Shown here one piece after another: positions 51,541 to 64,000 of a stretch of 64,000 bases of DNA (position 1 is its first letter; each line of letters begins with the position of its first letter). Below the pieces are notes generated by a model, which made no database searches, had not been told where the DNA came from, and worked only from the letters and a program-made list of their open reading frames with translations. This stretch comes from an uncultured Anaeroplasmataceae bacterium (GTDB lineage: Bacteria; Bacillota_I; Bacilli_A; Acholeplasmatales; Anaeroplasmataceae). The stretch spans positions 1 through 64,000 of the forward strand of contig CANRFF010000001.1 in NCBI GenBank assembly GCA_947629825.1, read 5' to 3'. Position numbers and translations under genes: made by a program.

Positions 51541-51569
51541 TTGAAAAGTCGCATCAATCATAGTATAAT
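51541..51569 (+). promoter_or_regulatory. SigmaA promoter of the AAA/repeat-protein operon
   Basis: TTGAAA (51541-51546), 17 bases, TATAAT (51564-51569). This is the only convincing promoter seen for the genes from 51626 to the window end. Confidence 0.8.
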
Positions 51570-51625: not shown

Positions 51626-53011
51626 ATGTTGAAAGAAAATATCCGGGAAGAACAACCAGAACAAAAAGGAACGAAGGAAGAACATTCGGAGTTTCAACCA
51701 CCCAAAACGTTTTTCAAACGCAAGACGAAAATCTGTTTTGTCGTTTTTTGTTTTTTCTATCTGAATGCCTTGATAGGATATACAATGTATCGTTTATGGG
51801 AAAACAAAACATTACCGCAGATTCTTGTCGTTTCTTTTGTGGCGGTTGTTTTTAATTTTGCGTTGATTGCCTGTTTGATTCATTTATTACGAAATAAACC
51901 GATGATTGTTGCCGATGTTTCCGATTTGCTTCGGGAAATCGATTGTCCCAATGCTTATCCGGTGGAAATAAAAAAAGAAGATGCAGTCGAAGAGGATCTT
52001 TTGGAAGATGTCATCGCTGAGAAAGGTTCTTATGAAGAAATTTACAATCCGCAAGGTCAAGTGAAGTCGTTGAGTTTGGCTGATGCCTGTACTCAGTTTT
52101 GTGCGTATTCCGCTACGAGAGGATTGCTTGTCGACTATTCTACCGCCAGAGTTTTCTTCTCGGCGCTTACGACAACCAAATTGATTTTGATTCGCAGTAT
52201 TCAGGAAAATCTGGCGAAAAAGTTCATTACCATCGCCAAAGAATATTTTTCCAATCAGACGCCTCTTATTTTCATTGATTCGCAAATGATGACGAATCGC
52301 CAGTTTTTGAATCATCCGCTTTTCCGTCAAGCCGTGGAAGAAGCCAATGCGTTTCCCGATCGGATTACGCTTGCGGTGTTGGACGGAATGAGCATGAGTC
52401 AGATGGATAAAATTTTTGCGCCGATGATGCCGTTTATCGGAAAAGTCGAAAAAACATGGCCGATGAGCGGTGAGATGACGATTCCTCAAAATTTTTGGAT
52501 GGTTGCGCTTACCGAAGAAAATGAGTATTCCAAAGATCTGGCAATGAATACTCTGACTTTGGAATTGGATGGTCGTTTTGCGGAAGAAACGGAATTTACA
52601 GAAGAACTGAAATTGCTGAGTTACTCGAATCTTGTGGACAATCTGGTCGTGGATGACGATTTTCTCTATTCCATTTCGGAAGAAGATTGGAAGAAATTGG
52701 ACGAATTGGAAGACTATCTTCAAAGATATGCGAGATTTCATTTGGAAAACCGCTCGACGAATCAAATGGAAGACTTTGCGTTTGCCTATATGATTGCGGG
52801 TGGAGAAGAAAAAGATGCGCTGGACGGCGTTTTGGCTTGTAAGATTTTACCGCCGCTTCTTCAAAATTCCGAATTGACGTCGATGGAAAAAGAAGACAAT
52901 CTTTCTGCGAAAATCGAAGAACTATTCGATCCGGATCATCTTCAACACAGTCGTAAAGTTTTAAAGCGGGTGCAAAAGAAAGCAGAGGGATTGAAAAATG
53001 ATGTTGTTTAG
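51626..53011 (+). CDS. Membrane protein with inactive AAA-like domain (first gene of the system)
   Basis: 461 residues. A charged 30-residue N-terminus is followed by two transmembrane helices (about 34-52 and 66-88). An acidic linker leads to a cytoplasmic domain that lines up with the AAA proteins encoded next: FFSALTTTKLILIRSIQENL near 175-194 sits where their Walker A helix lies but has no GxxxxGK[ST]. LAVLDGMSMSQMDKIF near 250 replaces Walker B LDEMNIAR (Glu lost). PQNFWMVALTEEN near 288-300 parallels their sensor-1 segment PENMWFIGTANND. I infer a catalytically dead paralogue, perhaps a structural subunit of the AAA ring. The ribosome site is weak (GGGGA). Confidence 0.7.
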   Translation: MLKENIREEQPEQKGTKEEHSEFQPPKTFFKRKTKICFVVFCFFYLNALIGYTMYRLWENKTLPQILVVSFVAVVFNFALIACLIHLLRNKPMIVADVSDLLREIDCPNAYPVEIKKEDAVEEDLLEDVIAEKGSYEEIYNPQGQVKSLSLADACTQFCAYSATRGLLVDYSTARVFFSALTTTKLILIRSIQENLAKKFITIAKEYFSNQTPLIFIDSQMMTNRQFLNHPLFRQAVEEANAFPDRITLAVLDGMSMSQMDKIFAPMMPFIGKVEKTWPMSGEMTIPQNFWMVALTEENEYSKDLAMNTLTLELDGRFAEETEFTEELKLLSYSNLVDNLVVDDDFLYSISEEDWKKLDELEDYLQRYARFHLENRSTNQMEDFAFAYMIAGGEEKDALDGVLACKILPPLLQNSELTSMEKEDNLSAKIEELFDPDHLQHSRKVLKRVQKKAEGLKNDVV

Positions 53012-54380
53012 TGCCAATGATTTTTTTCATCAACTTTGGAATTTTTTATCCAGTAAATATGCGATGATTGTTTATGTGGCTCTGATTTTGATTTTAATTG
53101 TCATTTTGACCATTTTCGTTATGGTAAACGAACACAGAAAGGCAGAAATTTACCGGGTGACGGACGAAGAAGAAATCATTTATGAAAATCCGAAAGATGC
53201 TCCTTCTTCCGCTTCGCCCGTGGAATCTTCTCGGGTACCGGAGACTCCTTCTGCGGAACAAGGCGAAGAAGAACCGAAAGAAGAGAACAAAACGGAAGAA
53301 AAAAGCCGGTTTTATATGTTGAGTCAAATCGATCGGGAGATGGAACATTACGAAGCCCCGGAGTATGATGATAAAGTTACACTGAAAGAAATCTGCGAAC
53401 GGTTTCGCCGATATGCGGGAAGCCGGTTGGGATTATATTACGATATTCAGGATATCCGAAGATTTATCGCAGGGATGGCGGTAACGCATATTATGATATT
53501 ACAAGGGATGTCCGGAACCGGAAAAACATCGCTTGCGTATGCGTTCGGAGAATTCTTACGGAATCGGACGGTGATTGTACCGATTCAACCGATGTGGAAA
53601 GAGCGAACGGATTTGTTGGGATATTATAACGAGTTTACAAAGAAGTTCAATGAGACGATGTTACTGGAAAAGATGTATGAAGCCAATTATAACGACGAGA
53701 TCTATATTACGGTTTTGGATGAAATGAATATCGCAAGAGTAGAGTATTATTTTGCGGAATTTTTATCGTTATTGGAGATTCCGAATCAAGAAGGAAGAAA
53801 TATCGATGTAGTGAGTGACCGGTGGGAAAACGATCCGAAGTTATTGAAAAACGGACAGTTGAGATTACCGGAGAATATGTGGTTTATCGGTACGGCGAAT
53901 AACGACGATTCGACCTTTGCGATATCAGATAAGGTCTATGACCGAGCGATGATTATGAATTTGGATAAGAAAGCGACGGTATTCGAAGAAGGGGAAGAAG
54001 AATCGATGAAGATATCAAGCAGTCATCTTCACCGATTGTATAAAGAGGCAATGAAAGAATATCGTATCACAAGAAGGAATCTGAATCGGATCAAAGAATT
54101 GGATGAGTATATGATCAAAGAGTTTCACCTGACGTTTGGAAACCGGATAATGAAACAGATCCGGAGTTATGTACCGGTGATTGTGGCGTGCGGAGGAACG
54201 GAGTTGGAAGCGATTGATGATATCTTGTCAAGGAAGATCATTCGGAAATTGGAGTCGCAAAATCCGGTATATGTCAGAAATTCCGCAAGTGGATTGATTA
54301 CTTATATGGATGAATTATTCGGAGAAGACAAATTGCCTTTATGTAAGGCTTATATCGAACGAATCAAACGGACAGTTTAG
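52998..54380 (+). CDS. Membrane-anchored McrB/MoxR-like AAA ATPase (copy A)
   Basis: 460 residues. One transmembrane helix (about 20-43, YAMIVYVALILILIVILTIF), a Ser/Pro/Glu-rich acidic linker (about 55-110), then a cytoplasmic AAA domain: Walker A LQGMSGTGKTS near 169-179, Walker B TVLDEMNIARVEYYFAEFLS near 237-256 (the DEMN form typical of McrB and MoxR-like AAA), sensor-1 FIGTANNDDSTF near 296, and arginine-containing SDKVYDRAMIM near 310. A helical C-terminal lid ends the protein. From 53264 to the stop its DNA matches copy B (56542-57658). It overlaps the preceding gene by 14 bases. Confidence 0.85.
   Translation: MMLFSANDFFHQLWNFLSSKYAMIVYVALILILIVILTIFVMVNEHRKAEIYRVTDEEEIIYENPKDAPSSASPVESSRVPETPSAEQGEEEPKEENKTEEKSRFYMLSQIDREMEHYEAPEYDDKVTLKEICERFRRYAGSRLGLYYDIQDIRRFIAGMAVTHIMILQGMSGTGKTSLAYAFGEFLRNRTVIVPIQPMWKERTDLLGYYNEFTKKFNETMLLEKMYEANYNDEIYITVLDEMNIARVEYYFAEFLSLLEIPNQEGRNIDVVSDRWENDPKLLKNGQLRLPENMWFIGTANNDDSTFAISDKVYDRAMIMNLDKKATVFEEGEEESMKISSSHLHRLYKEAMKEYRITRRNLNRIKELDEYMIKEFHLTFGNRIMKQIRSYVPVIVACGGTELEAIDDILSRKIIRKLESQNPVYVRNSASGLITYMDELFGEDKLPLCKAYIERIKRTV
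53264..54380 (+). repeat. Long direct repeat, unit 1 (AAA module)
   Basis: About 1,117 bases identical by eye to 56542-57658 (offset 3,278), covering the end of the linker and the whole AAA domain. The only differences I saw are two bases near the 3' end (CGG/CGA codon and TAG/TAA stop). Upstream of 53264 the two genes diverge quickly, with patches of similarity back to about 53207. Confidence 0.92.
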
Positions 54381-54401: not shown

Positions 54402-56219
54402 TTGGATAAATCAGATGTTTTATATCGTGCTTTTTGTGATTACCGCAAATGGACCGAAGGAAATAAAGAGTGCCGATATCAACGAAAAGAATTAAGACAA
54501 GCCGATTCGGATAAAGATTGGATTAAGACGAAAAAGTATATTTGTTCGATCGATGAAGATTGGGTTGTGGAAATCGAGAATTCTTTGGAATTTATTGTGA
54601 ATGCCATTCAGGAAGAACGGCAGTTTATTACGTCTATGGGCGAAGTGGTACCGATCGAAAAAGTTCGAAAAGTATCGAAAGCTTCCGTGGAGCATTTGGC
54701 CCGGCACAGCAATTTGATTACGCATGTTCCGGAAGAAGAAAAAGCCGATTTGGTCCCGGAAAAAATTTATATGGTCGAAAAACTGGCGGATTATACGGTT
54801 TACGAAAATCGCTTTTTGTATATGCTTCTTTGTTATTTAAGGGATTTTATCGAATTGCGGTTGAATAAAATCACGGCGATGACCAGTCGTTTTACGGGGT
54901 CTTACGAAGCCGATAAAAAAATAGAAAGTAAGTTGGCGAAATTTCAGTATCAGATTCGATTTTACGAGGAGCGTTCGGATAATCCGAAACCGTTGTTTTC
55001 GGCCAATTCCGATGATCTGTTCGACCGCATCAAATCGATTCAGCATACGGTTTTGTCTTTGTTGAATACGCCTTTGATGATTGAGGTTTCCAAAGCTCCG
55101 ATGATCAAACCGCCGATTGTCAAAACGAATCCTTTGAAGATGAACAACAATTTCAAACACGCTTTGGCGCTTTATGAATTCGTTTCCGCCTACGACAAAG
55201 ACGGTTTTACAATCGAAGAACAGGAAAAAAATTTCCATCCGTTTCCGGATGTCGTCTCCGATGAAGTTTCGGAATTGATGGTATTGACTTCTTTTTTGGT
55301 TTTCCTCTACGGAAATGATCTGAGAGCGGATTTGAAATTACGTTATGAAGCCGACGAAGAACGCCGAAAAGAAGCGGAAGCCAAGCATTTGGTAGAACAA
55401 ATCAAGCGTTTGAAACGAAGAATTCTGGAATCCGGTATGGGTACGGAAGAATATATGTTGTTGTTGGAACAGCGGAATCGGGATTTAGAAAAGGCCAATA
55501 CGGAATTGGTAATTGCCAAACAGTTGATCGAGCAGTTGAATACGCAAATCAACGATTTGAAAGATAAAAATCAGCAACTGCAAAAAGAGATTCGGCGGAA
55601 AGAAGCCGAAATCACGGCATTGAACGAAAAATATATTCATGATTTGAATGAACAGCAACAGGCCTATGAAGCGCAGATCGAACAAATGAGCGAAGAACAT
55701 CTGGAAGAAATTGCCGATTTGGAACAAGCCCACCAACAGGAGTTGGAAGATTTACAGGCGCAACATATCGAGGAATTGGATGAACAGGCGCTGTCTTTCG
55801 AAAACGAAAAACAACAGTGGCAGGAAGAGTTGGATTTGGCCGAACAGGCGAAAGAAGAATTGGTTCGTCGTCATCAGGAAGAACTTTCCGAGTTGGATCA
55901 AAAGCGGGAAGAAGAAAAAGGTTCTTTCGAACAGACATTGGAAAAACAAAATTCCGAAGCGTTGGAATTGGAAAAGAAACTTGCCGGACTGACGGAAGAA
56001 AAAAGATTGCTTTCGGCTCAGTTGAAAAGCGAACTCCAACAAAGAGGTCTGACGAAAGATATGGATTTTACTTCCAAGGAAAATTTTCAGGAATTGGAAA
56101 AAGAATATCAGGCATTTACCCGTTTTTTTCAGGAACAGTGGAAAGAAACAAAGAAAAAAATAAGAAAAGATATCCTTTGGAACAGCGAACCGAAGAAAAA
56201 GAACAAAGAAGAATCTTAA
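54402..56219 (+). CDS. Coiled-coil protein with DUF2357-like N-terminal half
   Basis: 605 residues, soluble. Residues about 1-300 are globular; the segment DYTVYENRFLYMLLCYLRDFIELRL near 127-151 is like the Y-x-x-x-ENRF signature of DUF2357 proteins, which accompany McrB-type AAA proteins. Residues about 310-560 form a long, highly charged coiled coil (heptads rich in Glu, Gln, Lys, e.g. LEKANTELVIAKQLIEQL). No PD-(D/E)xK nuclease motif is visible at the end, unlike McrC. The start is TTG 54402 with GGAGGG 8-9 bases upstream. It sits between the two AAA copies, 21 and 23 bases from them, so it is probably their partner. DUF2357 membership needs a profile search. Confidence 0.7.
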   Translation: MDKSDVLYRAFCDYRKWTEGNKECRYQRKELRQADSDKDWIKTKKYICSIDEDWVVEIENSLEFIVNAIQEERQFITSMGEVVPIEKVRKVSKASVEHLARHSNLITHVPEEEKADLVPEKIYMVEKLADYTVYENRFLYMLLCYLRDFIELRLNKITAMTSRFTGSYEADKKIESKLAKFQYQIRFYEERSDNPKPLFSANSDDLFDRIKSIQHTVLSLLNTPLMIEVSKAPMIKPPIVKTNPLKMNNNFKHALALYEFVSAYDKDGFTIEEQEKNFHPFPDVVSDEVSELMVLTSFLVFLYGNDLRADLKLRYEADEERRKEAEAKHLVEQIKRLKRRILESGMGTEEYMLLLEQRNRDLEKANTELVIAKQLIEQLNTQINDLKDKNQQLQKEIRRKEAEITALNEKYIHDLNEQQQAYEAQIEQMSEEHLEEIADLEQAHQQELEDLQAQHIEELDEQALSFENEKQQWQEELDLAEQAKEELVRRHQEELSELDQKREEEKGSFEQTLEKQNSEALELEKKLAGLTEEKRLLSAQLKSELQQRGLTKDMDFTSKENFQELEKEYQAFTRFFQEQWKETKKKIRKDILWNSEPKKKNKEES

Positions 56220-56242
56220 TGTAATTGAAGGAGGTGAAAACA

Positions 56243-57658
56243 ATGATCCATAAAAAACATACGATCCGATTGATTTTATTTTTGATGATCGTTTTCCTTG
56301 TGGGCGGACTTTTAATCTATGCTCTTTGGAACAGCAATATCGATTCCGCAAACACTTGGGTCAATTCCGAAGTGATTTATATGGTTCTTGTTTTAGCCGT
56401 CCTTTTACCGATTTTTTTAATCGTATTGATTGCGAAAGTTTCCAATCGGGAAACGGAAGTGTTTGAAGTTACTCAAGCGAAAAATCCTTCCGCTTCGCCC
56501 ATGGAATCTTCTCGGGTACCGGAGTCTTCTGCGGAAAAAACCGAAGAAGAACCGAAAGAAGAGAACAAAACGGAAGAAAAAAGCCGGTTTTATATGTTGA
56601 GTCAAATCGATCGGGAGATGGAACATTACGAAGCCCCGGAGTATGATGATAAAGTTACACTGAAAGAAATCTGCGAACGGTTTCGCCGATATGCGGGAAG
56701 CCGGTTGGGATTATATTACGATATTCAGGATATCCGAAGATTTATCGCAGGGATGGCGGTAACGCATATTATGATATTACAAGGGATGTCCGGAACCGGA
56801 AAAACATCGCTTGCGTATGCGTTCGGAGAATTCTTACGGAATCGGACGGTGATTGTACCGATTCAACCGATGTGGAAAGAGCGAACGGATTTGTTGGGAT
56901 ATTATAACGAGTTTACAAAGAAGTTCAATGAGACGATGTTACTGGAAAAGATGTATGAAGCCAATTATAACGACGAGATCTATATTACGGTTTTGGATGA
57001 AATGAATATCGCAAGAGTAGAGTATTATTTTGCGGAATTTTTATCGTTATTGGAGATTCCGAATCAAGAAGGAAGAAATATCGATGTAGTGAGTGACCGG
57101 TGGGAAAACGATCCGAAGTTATTGAAAAACGGACAGTTGAGATTACCGGAGAATATGTGGTTTATCGGTACGGCGAATAACGACGATTCGACCTTTGCGA
57201 TATCAGATAAGGTCTATGACCGAGCGATGATTATGAATTTGGATAAGAAAGCGACGGTATTCGAAGAAGGGGAAGAAGAATCGATGAAGATATCAAGCAG
57301 TCATCTTCACCGATTGTATAAAGAGGCAATGAAAGAATATCGTATCACAAGAAGGAATCTGAATCGGATCAAAGAATTGGATGAGTATATGATCAAAGAG
57401 TTTCACCTGACGTTTGGAAACCGGATAATGAAACAGATCCGGAGTTATGTACCGGTGATTGTGGCGTGCGGAGGAACGGAGTTGGAAGCGATTGATGATA
57501 TCTTGTCAAGGAAGATCATTCGGAAATTGGAGTCGCAAAATCCGGTATATGTCAGAAATTCCGCAAGTGGATTGATTACTTATATGGATGAATTATTCGG
57601 AGAAGACAAATTGCCTTTATGTAAGGCTTATATCGAACGAATCAAACGAACAGTTTAA
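56243..57658 (+). CDS. Membrane-anchored McrB/MoxR-like AAA ATPase (copy B)
   Basis: 471 residues. Unlike copy A it has two transmembrane helices (about 7-29 and 43-67) with a short external loop (NSNIDSANTWVNSE). The acidic linker and the AAA domain are then the same as in copy A: Walker A near 181, DEMN Walker B near 248, sensor-1 GTANNDDST. The protein sequence from the linker (about residue 100) to the end is identical to copy A. AAGGAGGTGA precedes ATG 56243. Two active copies with distinct anchors may make mixed rings or act at different membrane partners. Confidence 0.85.
   Translation: MIHKKHTIRLILFLMIVFLVGGLLIYALWNSNIDSANTWVNSEVIYMVLVLAVLLPIFLIVLIAKVSNRETEVFEVTQAKNPSASPMESSRVPESSAEKTEEEPKEENKTEEKSRFYMLSQIDREMEHYEAPEYDDKVTLKEICERFRRYAGSRLGLYYDIQDIRRFIAGMAVTHIMILQGMSGTGKTSLAYAFGEFLRNRTVIVPIQPMWKERTDLLGYYNEFTKKFNETMLLEKMYEANYNDEIYITVLDEMNIARVEYYFAEFLSLLEIPNQEGRNIDVVSDRWENDPKLLKNGQLRLPENMWFIGTANNDDSTFAISDKVYDRAMIMNLDKKATVFEEGEEESMKISSSHLHRLYKEAMKEYRITRRNLNRIKELDEYMIKEFHLTFGNRIMKQIRSYVPVIVACGGTELEAIDDILSRKIIRKLESQNPVYVRNSASGLITYMDELFGEDKLPLCKAYIERIKRTV
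56542..57658 (+). repeat. Long direct repeat, unit 2 (AAA module)
   Basis: Second unit of the 1.1-kb direct repeat described at 53264-54380. Recombination between the units would delete the coiled-coil gene and leave one hybrid AAA gene. Confidence 0.92.
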
Positions 57659-57678
57659 AAAGAAAGGAGATGAGTTCT

Positions 57679-60513
57679 GTGGTTCGCAAAGGAAAAAGAG
57701 CGGTTTATATTTTGGGAAGTGTCATCATAGGACTCATTTTTGTTCTGTTTGTTTATTTTGTGATGATTTCCATCGGCGTGATTCAACCGCGGAAAACGGA
57801 TTTGGTGATTATGTCGTCTACGATTCAAAAACAATATGACGGAAGTGCTTTGGTCGGAACCGGTTATGAGATCGTGGAAGGAAAACTGAAAGACGGTCAC
57901 CATTTGAATGTGGAATTTACTTCTTCCATCACAGAAATCGGTTCTTGCGACAATGAAATCAATGTTCAGGTCTTGGATTTGGAAGGTGCCGATATTTCCA
58001 ACCGATACAATTTACAGTTGGAATATGGAAAACTGATCGTTCGCAAACGGGCGCTGACCATTCAGATTTTGAATAAAACCAAAGTATACGACCGCACCCC
58101 ATTGGTTGTGGAAGAAAGCGACTGGACGGTTGTCAACGGAAGTGTTCTTCCGACCGATGAGTTGACGGTTACCGTGCAGGGCGAACGAACGGAAGTCGGT
58201 CAGGAACAGTGTTATATGACCGCAACGCTGACAAATATGAACGGACAGGATGTCAGCGATAATTATGATGTTCGTTTTCTCGGCGGATTGTTGGAAGTAA
58301 CGGGAAGACCGCTGACCATTCAAGTCGGCAGCGCAACGAAACTTTATGACGGACTTCCTTTGACGGCAGAAGATTACGAAATCGTTGAAGGGGGACTTTT
58401 TGAAAATCATCATTTGGAATTGGAATATTTGGGTTCACAAACCGAAGTCGGTGCTTCCGATTCGACGGCTCGAGGTGTCGTTTTGGATGAATCGGGAAAC
58501 GATGTTACCAAAGATTATGCCATTACGTATCTTCCGGGGACTTTGGAGGTAACGACCATCGATTTGAAAGTTTATACCGAAGATATCAGTAAAACCTACG
58601 ATGGAACGCCACTCGTTTGCGAAGATGAAACAAAAGTCCGATTTGAATCTCTTTTACCGAATCATCAGGTAACTTTCCGTTTTACCGGTTCCCAGACCAA
58701 TGTGGGAGAATGTGAAAATACCGTTGAAATCGTAAGTATTGTCGACGAAAACGGAAAAGATGTCACAAAAGCATACAACATCAACAATGAATTCGGTAAA
58801 TTGAAAGTTCAAAAATGCAGAGTGGATATCCGTTTCCAGAATCTCCGGTATTCTTATGACGGAATGGAACATTTTTATGAAGATAGCGAAGAAAATTGGA
58901 GTATTTCTCCGCTTGGGTTTCCGAATCATCGGGTGGAAGTTCATATTGAAGAAGCCGGATTGACGGAAGTCGGAACGAAAAACATCAAGGTTACCTCCAT
59001 GAACGTATATCGTGAAGACAATAACGAAGATGTATCCTCGAATTTTACTTTTCCGACCAATCTGAGAATCACACTGGAAATTACCAAATGTAAGATCAAA
59101 ATCAAAAGTAATGATATTGTTAGTGTCGAATATGACGGAACCGATCATAAAGATTCGAAAAACGTTGAAATCATATCGTCGGATTCTCCTTTTTCCGATT
59201 TGAAGATAGAATGTTCTTTTAGTGAATTGACGAAAGAAGTCGGCATTTTTAAAAATGAATTTACGATCAACAAAATCACAAACGATCAAGGACAGGATAT
59301 CACCAAAAATTTCGATATCGAATCCGAATTTGGAGAAATCAACATTACCAAGATCTCTCTTAAAATCGTTACGGCAACACTTGAAAAAGAGTATGACGGT
59401 ACCCCGCTTTTCCCGGAGCCGACAGATTGGGCTTTGGTGAGCGGAAGATTGGTAGATGGTGATACGATTAACGGCGAGTTAAACGCTTTTCAACAAGAAA
59501 TCGGATCCAAAGATAATGTTTTATCGAATTTGACGATTGGCAATGAGACGACGAAAGCCGATCATATGAATCACTATGAGGTGAATTGTGAGTGGGGAAA
59601 ACTGATTGTCTATGCGAATGACCGACATCAGATTACGATTTCTCCTCGACCGATTTATATCGATGAACAAGATTGGGACAAATCTCTTATCAAGGCCGAT
59701 AAATATTTACAGGAACAATACTCGCTCAATCCGGAATTGACCCCAATCATCGGATTCGGTGAATGGTTGGCTCAAGGATATCGTATCGAGGCTTCCATCG
59801 AAGGCGAGTTGAATGAAGTCGGTGCGGTTGAAACGAAGATCACGTATAACACTATCAGGGTTTATATGGGAGAAGAGGACGTCACTTCCGAATTCTTTTT
59901 CCAGACAAAACCATCGATTTTGCAGATTTATCAATATCGTTTACGGATTACGACTCCTTCGGCTCGGAAAGAATATGACGGAACCCCGCTTAAAACCACA
60001 ACGGAGGGCTGTTCGTATTCGATTACTTACCATGGCGAAATATATGAAACCAAAGATGAAATTTCTTATGAACTCATCGGTCAGCAGACGGAAGTCGGGT
60101 TGTCATATAATTCGGTTCGGGTAACGATTGCCGGAGAAACGGATTTCGAAGGAGAACGTTATAAATTATATTATATTGACGATTCGGCGTTCGGACGTTT
60201 GGAAGTAACCAGAAAAAGAGTGATTATTTCTTCCGAAAGCAAGACCATTACCCAGGAAGAACTGGAAAGAGATTATCCGATCGGATTTGTTTGGGAAAAA
60301 TATACGATTGACGGTGTTGCTCCCGACGAATTGCCTCAGGAGTGGGATCTGTTTGATATTCAGATTACGTTCAGTCCGGAAGCCAGACTGGATGGTGTCG
60401 GGCAGACGCTCAATGAATTTACGGTAAGAATCATCCTGAAAGAAACCGGTCAGGATGTCACAAAGAATTTTATTTGTTTCAATTCTTTTGGAGATTTGAT
60501 TGTAGAAGAATAA
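57679..60513 (+). CDS. Giant membrane-anchored YDG/MBG-repeat protein, first
   Basis: 944 residues. A short basic N-terminus, one transmembrane helix (about 8-35, YILGSVIIGLIFVLFVYFVMI), then only repeats of roughly 85-90 residues. Each unit has K-x-Y-D-G-T-P-L near its start, a G-x-L-x-x-x-H segment, a T-x-V-G turn, D-V-(T/S)-x-N-Y and a closing G-x-L-x-V strand. Eight copies show the YD signature and about two more are degenerate. Such units are Ig-like (YDG/MBG families) and usually extracellular. No LPXTG or second helix is seen, so it should project outward from an N-terminal anchor. GTG 57679 fits the AAAGGAG at 57663-57669 better than ATG 57670, only one base away. Confidence 0.85.
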   Translation: MVRKGKRAVYILGSVIIGLIFVLFVYFVMISIGVIQPRKTDLVIMSSTIQKQYDGSALVGTGYEIVEGKLKDGHHLNVEFTSSITEIGSCDNEINVQVLDLEGADISNRYNLQLEYGKLIVRKRALTIQILNKTKVYDRTPLVVEESDWTVVNGSVLPTDELTVTVQGERTEVGQEQCYMTATLTNMNGQDVSDNYDVRFLGGLLEVTGRPLTIQVGSATKLYDGLPLTAEDYEIVEGGLFENHHLELEYLGSQTEVGASDSTARGVVLDESGNDVTKDYAITYLPGTLEVTTIDLKVYTEDISKTYDGTPLVCEDETKVRFESLLPNHQVTFRFTGSQTNVGECENTVEIVSIVDENGKDVTKAYNINNEFGKLKVQKCRVDIRFQNLRYSYDGMEHFYEDSEENWSISPLGFPNHRVEVHIEEAGLTEVGTKNIKVTSMNVYREDNNEDVSSNFTFPTNLRITLEITKCKIKIKSNDIVSVEYDGTDHKDSKNVEIISSDSPFSDLKIECSFSELTKEVGIFKNEFTINKITNDQGQDITKNFDIESEFGEINITKISLKIVTATLEKEYDGTPLFPEPTDWALVSGRLVDGDTINGELNAFQQEIGSKDNVLSNLTIGNETTKADHMNHYEVNCEWGKLIVYANDRHQITISPRPIYIDEQDWDKSLIKADKYLQEQYSLNPELTPIIGFGEWLAQGYRIEASIEGELNEVGAVETKITYNTIRVYMGEEDVTSEFFFQTKPSILQIYQYRLRITTPSARKEYDGTPLKTTTEGCSYSITYHGEIYETKDEISYELIGQQTEVGLSYNSVRVTIAGETDFEGERYKLYYIDDSAFGRLEVTRKRVIISSESKTITQEELERDYPIGFVWEKYTIDGVAPDELPQEWDLFDIQITFSPEARLDGVGQTLNEFTVRIILKETGQDVTKNFICFNSFGDLIVEE

Positions 60514-60536: not shown

Positions 60537-63500
60537 ATGGAAAGTTTATATGAAAAATATGAACAGAAAATGAAGAAAATCGCTCATATCAAAAATACGA
60601 TTTTACGTTTTAAAATCTTAATACTTTCCGCTTTCGCCCTGGTCATCGGCTTGGTCGTGAGTTATTTGTCCGTTTGCGGGATGATTTTAACCGATCTTCC
60701 TCCGATGACGGAAATGACTTACGGCGATGTGATTTCCTGTGAAACGAGCGCACTGTTTTCCAAGGTTCATTACGAATATTCTTTGGCTTCGGTCGAAACA
60801 TGGTCCGATGAGGTTCCGAAACTTCCCGGAGAATATAAAATCCGTGCCGTTTCGCATCGGAGTTTCGGAATAAAAGGGTATGGAAAAGAGTATCCGTTTA
60901 CGATTCTTGCGAAAAACATCGATGTTCGGATTTTGGAATCTTCTGTGGAATTCGGTGGGGTTCCGACTCCCGTGAGTACGGGTTTGGTCGGAAAAGATCA
61001 TTTTGTTTATGACGGGCAGTGTTTTGAATTTGCCGATCGCACAATTCAAAAGACGAAAGTATCTTTGAAAGAAAATACGCTTAAAATCGTCGATGAAGAA
61101 GGAACCGATGTCACTGCCGGATATATTATGAATCTTGAAAAAGACAAAGATATTTCTTATGTCGCAAGAAAACTGACGATTCAGTTAAAAGATCAGACCA
61201 AAGAATATGACGGAACTCCATTGACTTCCGAAGAATATGATATTGTCGGCGGAAGTCTTTTGGAAGGACACCGGTTGGAAATTGGGGTCAAGGGGTCTCA
61301 GTTGAATGTCGGCAGTAGTAACAATATTGGTGTGTCTGCCAGAATTTTATCGGACAATGAAGATGTTTCCGCCAATTATCAGGTTCAGTTTCTTTCGGGA
61401 CGGTTGACGATTCAAAAACGGAAAATTACGATTCAAACGGATAGTGATCAAAAAATATATGACGGCAAAACTTGGATTCGACCGGATTACGGATATGAAC
61501 TTTCCGAAGGAAATCTGGTTTCCGGACATCAGATTAAAGTCGTATCCAAACCGACGGTGCTGACAGTGGGAACGTATGCCAATCATTTCGATTTTCAAAT
61601 TGTGGATTCCCAAGGCGAAGATGTAACCGGAAATTACGAATTGACTTTGGAAGAGGGAACGCTAGAAGTTCTTCCGAAACCGATCACCATTTCCACAAAA
61701 GAGGCGTCCAAAATTTACGACGGCATTCCGTTGGTGGAATATGCTTTGACGGAAGAACCGACTTTGGCCGAAAATCAACAGTATCGTATTTCTTATACGG
61801 GAAGCCAACTCTTTGTCGGGGAATCGGAAAACAAAGCGACGATTTCGCTTTATGAAGGTTCGGTCAATGTGACCTCGAATTATCAGATTACGTACCATTA
61901 CGGAAAATTAAAAGTGGAAGCCCGATCCTTGACCATTCGGCCGAAAATCGGCTCGTGGATTTATGACGGCACCTATAAAACCATATCGCAAGTCGATTAT
62001 TTGTCGAGTTCTTTGGCTGCTTCCGATCGCATCGAAGTTGAAACCGATCGGATCCGAAATGTAGTAGACGGATATGAAAATCACATCCGGAATATAAAGA
62101 TTTATCATGGAACTACCGAAGTTACCCAATGTTATGATATCATCAAACAGACGAATACCATGACGATTACCCGCCGTCCGCTTCGAATCGAACCGCAAGG
62201 AGAAACGTTGACTTATGACGGGTTGGAACATTCGCTTTCTCAATATCGGTTATCAAATTCGACAACGCTGGGAAGCGGAGATGTTTTGAAAATCGAAACG
62301 CCGGCTCATTGGAAAACAGGTATTTATGTGTTATCCGTTACGTCGTATTCCATCACTTATGAAAATGAAGATGTGTCTTCGAATTATGAGGTGACGTTAA
62401 ATACCGGACAACTGAACATTCAGACAAGAACGATTTATCTGACTACCAAATCGGCAGAAAAAGTTTACGATAATCAACCGCTTACCTGTTATGAAGTCCA
62501 ACTGGATCGTAACACGTCTTTGGCGTCTACCGACCGGTTACAGATGTCTTATTCGAATTCGATTCTCGAACCGGGAAGTACTTCCAATCTTGCGACTGCC
62601 ACTATTGTTCATTCCGGGGAAAACGTCAACCATTGTTATCACATTGTGTGGAGTTACGGAAAGTTGACGATTCTCAAGCGACCGCTTTCATTACGAGCGA
62701 TGTCGGCAGACAAAGAATATGACGGAACACCGCTGGAAGCGACCTCTTATGAAGTGGTCGGAGCCTATGACGTTCTTTTGGGACATACGTTATTGGTAAC
62801 GGTTGCGGGAAGTATTACCGATTACGGAACGAGTCCGAACCGGATTGTTTCTCATCAAATTGTCGATGAAAATCATAAAGATGTATCCGAAAATTATAAA
62901 GTTGAATATCTGGAAGGCATTTTGAAAATCAGTCAGAGAACCATTCTTGTCCAAACGGGAACGGAAGAATGGGAATATGACGATCAGGCGCATTCCAATG
63001 AAGTGATTTCCGCAGATCGTTTGGTGGAAGGACATCAGTTGAAAATTCAAACCAAAGAAACGATTACGGAAGTGGGAAATAAAGCCAATGAGATTACGGT
63101 AAAAGTGATCGCAGGGACACAAGATGTAACGAACAATTATTCCATTCGTTATGATTACGGAAATCTATCGGTGACTCCGAGAAAGATGACGGTGACGACT
63201 CCTACTCATACCTGGATCTATCAATCTTACGATTTTTCCGATCCCGAAATCGAAACAGATCGTTTGATATCGACTCATACGACGAAAATTTCTTCTTATC
63301 CGACCATTCGTCATGTCGGAAGTATTTCCAATAATGTTTTGGTTGAGATTATGAAAGACGGAGTTTCCGTCACAAAAAATTATGAGATTACCTATGTATA
63401 TGGAACGTTGTCGATTACACCGCAACGGTTGGAGTTGGAGATTCTCGACAAAGTCAAAGAATATGACGGAGAAGAATTGACTTCCGATGAATATTCGGTT

Positions 63501-64000
63501 TCGGGATTACAAGGGGCGGATCGGATTGTGGTTTTGACCACGACCGGTCGTGTTACTTATGTTCATGAAGGATTTGTGGAAAATGGTTTGAATTCGCTTC
63601 AAATTCTCGATGAATTCGGAACGGATGTGGTAAAAGATTATGAAGTAGTGGTTCAAAAAGGAACGTTGTCGATTACGCCGAGACCTTTGGTTGTGAAACC
63701 GCTCGATTTGGAAAAGATTTATGATTCCACTCCTTTGGTACATAAATCTTCGGATTTTGAGACGATTCGCTCGACCTCGTTGGTTTTGAAAGATTACGGA
63801 CAAATGAGTACCGCCAATCGTTCGGTAACAAATGTTTGGGACGGAATTGTGCAAAATCAGATTACGGAATTCAAAATCTTCAATGAAAACGGCTTGGATA
63901 TTACTTCAAGTTATGAAATTACCTATGAAACGGGAACGTTGAAAATCAATCCGAGACCGATTTTAATCGAGACCGGAAGTTACGATGAAATTTATGACGG
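60537..64000 (+). CDS. Giant membrane-anchored YDG/MBG-repeat protein, second (truncated by window end)
   Basis: An open frame of at least 1,154 codons with no stop before the end of the window. ATG 60537 follows GGAGGAG. After a charged, coiled N-terminus of about 20 residues comes one transmembrane helix (about 25-47, FKILILSAFALVIGLVVSYL). A non-repeat external stretch to about residue 150 follows, then YDG/MBG-like units every 250 bases or so. YD motifs occur near 61206, 61456, 61716, 61961, 62216, 62466, 62718, 62981, 63467, 63720 and 63992. Units are diverse in DNA, unlike the AAA copies. It is the second giant repeat protein of the operon, 23 bases after the first. Confidence 0.85.
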   Translation, partial: MESLYEKYEQKMKKIAHIKNTILRFKILILSAFALVIGLVVSYLSVCGMILTDLPPMTEMTYGDVISCETSALFSKVHYEYSLASVETWSDEVPKLPGEYKIRAVSHRSFGIKGYGKEYPFTILAKNIDVRILESSVEFGGVPTPVSTGLVGKDHFVYDGQCFEFADRTIQKTKVSLKENTLKIVDEEGTDVTAGYIMNLEKDKDISYVARKLTIQLKDQTKEYDGTPLTSEEYDIVGGSLLEGHRLEIGVKGSQLNVGSSNNIGVSARILSDNEDVSANYQVQFLSGRLTIQKRKITIQTDSDQKIYDGKTWIRPDYGYELSEGNLVSGHQIKVVSKPTVLTVGTYANHFDFQIVDSQGEDVTGNYELTLEEGTLEVLPKPITISTKEASKIYDGIPLVEYALTEEPTLAENQQYRISYTGSQLFVGESENKATISLYEGSVNVTSNYQITYHYGKLKVEARSLTIRPKIGSWIYDGTYKTISQVDYLSSSLAASDRIEVETDRIRNVVDGYENHIRNIKIYHGTTEVTQCYDIIKQTNTMTITRRPLRIEPQGETLTYDGLEHSLSQYRLSNSTTLGSGDVLKIETPAHWKTGIYVLSVTSYSITYENEDVSSNYEVTLNTGQLNIQTRTIYLTTKSAEKVYDNQPLTCYEVQLDRNTSLASTDRLQMSYSNSILEPGSTSNLATATIVHSGENVNHCYHIVWSYGKLTILKRPLSLRAMSADKEYDGTPLEATSYEVVGAYDVLLGHTLLVTVAGSITDYGTSPNRIVSHQIVDENHKDVSENYKVEYLEGILKISQRTILVQTGTEEWEYDDQAHSNEVISADRLVEGHQLKIQTKETITEVGNKANEITVKVIAGTQDVTNNYSIRYDYGNLSVTPRKMTVTTPTHTWIYQSYDFSDPEIETDRLISTHTTKISSYPTIRHVGSISNNVLVEIMKDGVSVTKNYEITYVYGTLSITPQRLELEILDKVKEYDGEELTSDEYSVSGLQGADRIVVLTTTGRVTYVHEGFVENGLNSLQILDEFGTDVVKDYEVVVQKGTLSITPRPLVVKPLDLEKIYDSTPLVHKSSDFETIRSTSLVLKDYGQMSTANRSVTNVWDGIVQNQITEFKIFNENGLDITSSYEITYETGTLKINPRPILIETGSYDEIYD

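Follow-up and report, generated by a model that had tools for sequence, protein, structure and literature searches.

What is an AAA+ protein that has apparently lost its catalytic residues kept for at the head of an operon? The question is raised by the gene at positions 51626-53011 of the window, the 64,000-nucleotide stretch of DNA from an uncultured Anaeroplasmataceae bacterium that was analyzed here. This gene, designated D, is the first of a tight run of genes on one strand, where it is followed by A, C, B and the genes for two MBG/YDG-repeat proteins, and D and A share an overlap of 14 bases. The literature searched contained no account of such an operon. Its features are the following:

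51541..51569, + strand: promoter-like site TTGAAA-17-TATAAT upstream of D, with 11/12 matches; sites of this kind show no excess in the region, which leaves it only suggestive.
51626..53011, + strand: gene D, 461 aa, membrane hairpin plus a predicted catalytically dead AAA+ domain (ORF, BLAST, model and profile comparison).
51707..51892, + strand: predicted two-helix membrane hairpin of D, residues 28-60 and 63-89 (model, hydropathy).
52061..52990, + strand: predicted dead AAA+ domain of D, residues 146-455 (structural match, profile-profile comparison).
52998..54380, + strand: gene A, live membrane-anchored AAA+ NTPase (AAA_5, E = 1.4e-7; closest solved sequence McrB).
53264..54370, + strand: 1107-base stretch of A identical to B (partner 56542-57648).
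54402..56219, + strand: gene C, DUF2357 family (McrC finger type) with a long coiled coil (22/41 homologs match PF09823; model).
56225..57658, + strand: gene B, second live membrane-anchored AAA+ NTPase (AAA_5, E = 1.5e-7).
57670..60513, + strand: MBG/YDG-repeat surface protein 1, membrane-anchored (PF18657, E = 1e-16).
60537..64000, continuing past the window end, + strand: MBG/YDG-repeat surface protein 2 (PF18657, E = 2.4e-8 on the in-window part); 1943 aa at full length (L050).

The initial annotation had described D as an ATPase-dead paralog of the AAA proteins downstream, and the kinship is confirmed. A BLAST search with D of its own genome (1.4 Mb assembly) found A, B and a fourth AAA gene with E-values of 1e-12 to 1e-14, those to the downstream AAA proteins being 5.6e-14 and 2.2e-13. 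When a profile of 53 D rows was aligned to one of 15 A/B rows, the probability was 100 and the E-value 2.3e-42 over 322 columns that spanned both core and lid. The AlphaFold2 model built from the D alignment had a mean pLDDT of 81.8, with most blocks in residues 150-450 at 84-98 and values for the AAA part lying mostly above 90. Among the structural matches listed for this model, all were AAA+ proteins with Z-scores of 11-14, including MoxR-type 2r44 (Z 13.7, 266 aligned, 4.1 A), RavA 3nbx (Z 13.3), MCM2 (Z about 13), McrB 6ut6_D (Z 12.7 over 161 residues) and the Mg-chelatase subunit BchI (Z 11.4), and the best Foldseek E-value was 5e-5. McrB was also the top solved sequence relative of the D profile, at a weak E-value of 0.0023. 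D thus possesses the core and lid fold of the AAA+ superfamily, and the structure prediction proposed as a check did not return an unrelated fold. Pfam recognized an AAA domain in none of the 53 D proteins, which explains why such genes would be annotated as hypothetical; its GGACT match on D (0.0088, below the cut-off) was dismissed as chance. In the D model the AAA domain is preceded by helices at residues 28-60 and 63-89, and hydropathy peaks were found for windows starting at residues 36 and 66-67. The two-helix anchor noted earlier is therefore a well-supported prediction.

The positions of Walker A, Walker B and sensor 1 can be recognized in D, as had been noted before, and are degenerate:

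52181..52222, + strand: degenerate Walker A of D, LILIRSIQENLAKK where the GMSGTGKTS region is expected.
52370..52402, + strand: degenerate Walker B of D, LAVLDGMSMSQ compared with ITVLDEMNIAR.
52490..52522, + strand: degenerate sensor 1/NxxD region of D, NFWMVALTEEN.
52748..52753, + strand: retained lid pair N375-R376 of D.

When the window copies are compared (residue of A first, residue of D second), G170 of Walker A corresponds to S191, and the P-loop residues K176 and T177 correspond to A197 and K198. In Walker B, D241 is kept as D253 and the Glu is gone (E242 to G254), and the Asn after Walker B is replaced by Ser (N244 to S256). Moreover, the sensor 1 residues N301 and N302 are replaced by E297 and E298, and the arginine finger R316 by N308. 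Window D hence has none of the residues expected of an active AAA+ NTPase, i.e., the Walker A Lys, the Walker B Glu, sensor 1 and the arginine finger. The same pattern was found among 61 D homologs, in which the Walker A Lys was absent from all 60 aligned and the arginine finger from all 61, while the Walker B Glu occurred in five and the sensor-1 Asn in four. Each of these four residues was present in 117 of 117 A/B copies. Judged by these residues, D appears to have completely lost what is needed for the use of ATP or GTP. Its deadness thus stands as first described, and only the wording requires change: "NTPase-dead" fits better than "ATPase-dead", as A and B have a McrB-like NxxD motif (GTANNDD).

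The exception in D is the lid, where the pair N382-R383 of A is retained as N375-R376; the two N-[RK] positions are kept in 58 and 59 of the 61 homologs. A role as trans-acting sensor 2, as suggested for BchI/ChlD, can be raised for this pair only as a possibility, given that McrB is without a canonical sensor 2 (PMC6624300). The identities between D and A were low throughout (14-21%), and the lid was hardly better conserved than the core, which counts against the reading of D as a subunit that is developed below. Apart from the N-[RK] pair, the alignments thus suggest no preferential retention of the D lid.

The loss of the catalytic residues is old, as the 61 D homologs formed a single fully supported clade on a long branch. 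In six pairs of related D domains dN/dS was 0.10-0.30, compared with 0.02-0.13 for A. D is under purifying selection and is constrained, less so than the motor A. The residue pattern of the 61 homologs, the dN/dS values and the single clade together rule out that D is a local pseudogene. It is likewise very improbable that D is a decaying copy without function or retains some unusual nucleotide-dependent activity. The high divergence of D (D-D identity of 17-28%) would fit such a reading, but the ORFs are intact in about 60 loci of one ancient clade, the dN/dS values are those just given, and the residues for nucleotide binding and hydrolysis are lost. The fast evolution of D, which also counts against the subunit reading, had a practical consequence: a direct search of the genome contigs with D gave no match because D diverges fast, and an alignment of A/B was used in its place as the query for loci. 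Viral contigs gave no relative of A/B.

The loci came from one scan of Clostridia and Bacilli genomes (67 loci), to which stretches from related genomes were added; 51 A-C-B loci remained after removal of known duplicates. This sample is biased, as the loci were picked by similarity to A/B of this operon type. The nearest relatives bearing names in the scan were Anaeroplasma sp. and uncultured Anaeroplasmataceae. D was directly upstream in 44 of the 48 A-C-B loci that had an upstream gene, and a relative of the MBG proteins was directly downstream in 43 of the 44 that had a downstream gene. The gene before D encoded a giant LRR protein in the two Clostridia loci scanned (LRR_5, E about 1e-210 and 1e-207), and at the locus of the window an LRR protein of 1152 aa is encoded downstream. 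A bin named Haloplasma contractile (L109) carried the full D-A-C-B-MBG-MBG order with a short D of 394 aa. Similar low-complexity C-terminal tails rich in Lys, Thr, Ser and Ala (KTT/AAKKT type) were observed at L050 6385-8226, L049 11919-13160 and L043 2036-5827, their carriers being a membrane protein downstream of the operon, a signal-peptidase-like protein and one D protein. Given that a dead D is kept at the head of the same cluster, beside surface-repeat proteins, in many uncultured gut-type bacteria, D very probably functions, without catalysis of its own, within an undescribed machine.

The motors of this machine would be A and B. McrB was the closest solved sequence of the A/B profile (E = 1.4e-4), and both proteins carry Walker motifs together with the NxxD in place of sensor 1, of which N301 was present in 117 of 117 and D304 in 111 of 117 copies. 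In McrB, residues N282, N333 and D336 relay the binding of McrC (PMC6624300), and their counterparts are retained in the live A and B. Unlike the identical 1107-base stretch, the N-terminal anchors of A and B differ. The A-B pair shared at least 98% DNA identity over more than 800 bases in 30 of 47 A-C-B loci, and A and B were mutual closest relatives in the tree in 33 of 46 loci, while the identity of A from one genome of the family to another was only 50-67%. The two AAA domains, of A and of B, evolve in concert across the intervening gene C, which is most simply explained by gene conversion; D takes no part in this homogenization. Five loci (L079, L089, L094, L099 and L106) had the order D-A-MBG without C and B. 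They were rejected as real variants lacking C, as near-identical A and B can collapse in short-read assembly, and they probably reflect such collapse, or a real deletion, between the two copies.

No Pfam domain was found in window C. However, PF09823 (DUF2357) was matched by 22 of 41 C homologs and also by the homolog at L049 (3.8e-11), and C can be placed at the family level among McrC-type DUF2357 proteins. DUF2357 is the N-terminal domain of McrC, which contacts and activates McrB (PMC11090510, PMC6624300). In the C model, residues 164-191 form a long beta hairpin and residues 348-547 a helix some 200 residues long. A conserved stretch at about residues 73-128 was partly of low model confidence and might become ordered only in a partner. 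A PDB fold search with the C model returned only coiled-coil and unrelated matches; the long helix dominated this search, so that the missing McrC match is no evidence against kinship.

Another reading takes the whole operon for an anti-phage or other defense system of McrBC descent, in which D would be a sensor or a brake. McrBC and CoCoNuTs are defense systems (PMC11090510), and A and B match the PADLOC candidate defense family PDC-M26A with an E-value of 1e-46, the match covering part of that model. We regard this reading as improbable: Pfam found no nuclease in the C or D homologs scanned, PADLOC matched neither D nor C, each of the three AAA proteins is anchored in the membrane, and the proteins that constantly accompany them are surface proteins of the MBG and LRR types.

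In most loci D carries a further domain. An N-terminal GH3 region was fused to D in 47 of 61 loci (L040, L042, L046, L054 and 43 others), and among 25 such D proteins tested by Pfam, GH3_C was found in all, an Fn3-like domain in 18 and, weakly, the GH3 N domain in six. The profile of the GH3 region matched the beta-glucosidase 7ms2 with an E-value of 2.5e-131. The nucleophile Asp (SDW) and the Lys-His (KH) substrate pair were absent at the aligned positions in all GH3 regions of D, which suggests that D with a fused GH3 is a double pseudoenzyme, dead in its AAA half and in its GH3 half. The GH3 region lies before the hairpin and no signal peptide was seen by eye, so that it should be cytoplasmic. 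It is missing from window D, from D of L058, L109 and L128 and from a few others, although some of the short D cases are cut by contig ends.

This extra domain bears on where D would sit. D may stand outside the A/B ring, as a membrane scaffold or receptor of its own beside the ring that regulates it, e.g., with the cytosolic GH3-like domain as a sugar sensor where present. Such an arrangement is possible but less probable than the subunit reading. It would suit a protein that has its own anchor and, in those 47 loci, a large extra domain, and the lost arginine finger means that D cannot complete the active site of a neighbor in the usual way. Moreover, A-C-B loci without D exist (4 of 48, L129-L132, from three genomes of one other family), with a different gene, of BspA-like repeats by eye, at the place of D; D is thus not required to build every such machine. 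On the other hand, a plain receptor would not need an AAA core and lid kept at full length, and D is missing from single-AAA systems. For instance, a second system in the same genome (C4; L049 8203-19173) has one live AAA protein (513 aa), one DUF2357 protein and no D. It also contains signal-peptidase-like genes that are SipW-like by position and motif, one of which matches Peptidase_S26, and genes for five proteins whose signal region is TasA/camelysin-like (TTFAW type). Single-AAA loci without D were also found in related genomes (L048 and L135-L139), seven such loci in all being examined. In this small sample, D therefore goes with the two-copy systems.

The reading that we favor, if only somewhat, makes D a dedicated AAA+ subunit, itself catalytically dead, in a McrBC-like machine that is anchored in the membrane and serves surface proteins. 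The D proteins of L044 and L045, which have 341 aa with neither the membrane hairpin nor GH3, count against it. The mixed asymmetric ring of D with A and B, proposed from the start, is plausible and agrees with the gene order, the conserved lid and the co-maintenance. McrB works as a hexamer in which the catalytic residues act in cis and the arginines in trans; its hydrolysis is stimulated by McrC, which is bound asymmetrically (PMC6624300, PMC7680126). By analogy, A and B, with the same live AAA domain behind different membrane anchors, would form a working ring on the cytoplasmic face. Like McrC in McrB, C would insert its DUF2357 finger into this ring and stimulate hydrolysis. D would occupy one or more ring positions, or cap the ring, through its retained lid and core surfaces, and would fix the register of the ring and silence an interface. 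In most species it would also bring the cytosolic GH3-derived domain that is lost here. The output of the machine would act on the MBG and LRR surface proteins that are co-encoded, whether to assemble them, to export them or to couple to them mechanically across the membrane, an action to which the gene order points. A precedent for a dead D is ChlD, an AAA+ subunit without observed hydrolysis that regulates the live ChlI (PMC3789969).

A bolder version, which we hold to be rather doubtful, is that monoderm bacteria have a membrane-embedded AAA+ machine of a new class, in which a mixed ring with a dead subunit, driven by a McrC-like finger, passes cytosolic NTP energy across the membrane to MBG/LRR surface fibers and is gated in most species by a cytosolic pseudo-glycosidase. 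Should the favored reading be confirmed, the operon would be a natural system in which the part played by an inactive AAA protomer in a ring can be studied. It would also suggest what this operon, widespread in uncultured Clostridia and Bacilli, may do. As the operon is carried by a named strain, Anaerocaecibacter muris CLA-AA-M11 (L080), it is open to testing.

MoxR-type AAA+ proteins (RavA, NorQ and CHU_0153) are live ATPases that work with VWA partners. They include the best structural matches of D (2r44 and 3nbx), but Pfam detected no VWA partner in this operon. The known McrB-McrC machines are motors that serve in the restriction of DNA or RNA. Similar to McrBC (PDB 6hz4 and 6ut6), the operon encodes proteins for which McrB is the closest solved sequence (A/B, and weakly D), and C shares DUF2357 with McrC. 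Different from McrBC, D, A and B all have membrane anchors, two live paralogs accompany one dead one, no nuclease or DNA-recognition domain was detected, and MBG and LRR surface proteins are part of the operon. In the type IV CoCoNuTs, too, a McrB-like NTPase goes together with a DUF2357 partner, and long coiled coils are present (PMC11090510). CoCoNuT GTPases, however, have NxD whereas A/B have NxxD and so lack the CoCoNuT motif, and neither a HEPN nor a PD-(D/E)xK nuclease was seen in this operon. In term searches of the McrBC census, neither membrane-anchored McrB nor glycosyl hydrolases were found (PMC11090510). Magnesium chelatase ChlI/ChlD (BchI/BchD), of the same broad AAA clade, likewise pairs one live with one inactive subunit. 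However, ChlD has an integrin-type domain and still possesses the Walker A Lys, the Walker B Glu and the arginines (PMC3789969), while D is seated in the membrane, has only the lid N-R left of such residues, and had no integrin/VWA domain in the C-terminal 500 aa of 53 homologs by Pfam. In this operon, the McrB-McrC core is tied to the membrane and to surface proteins, together with a conserved dead subunit.
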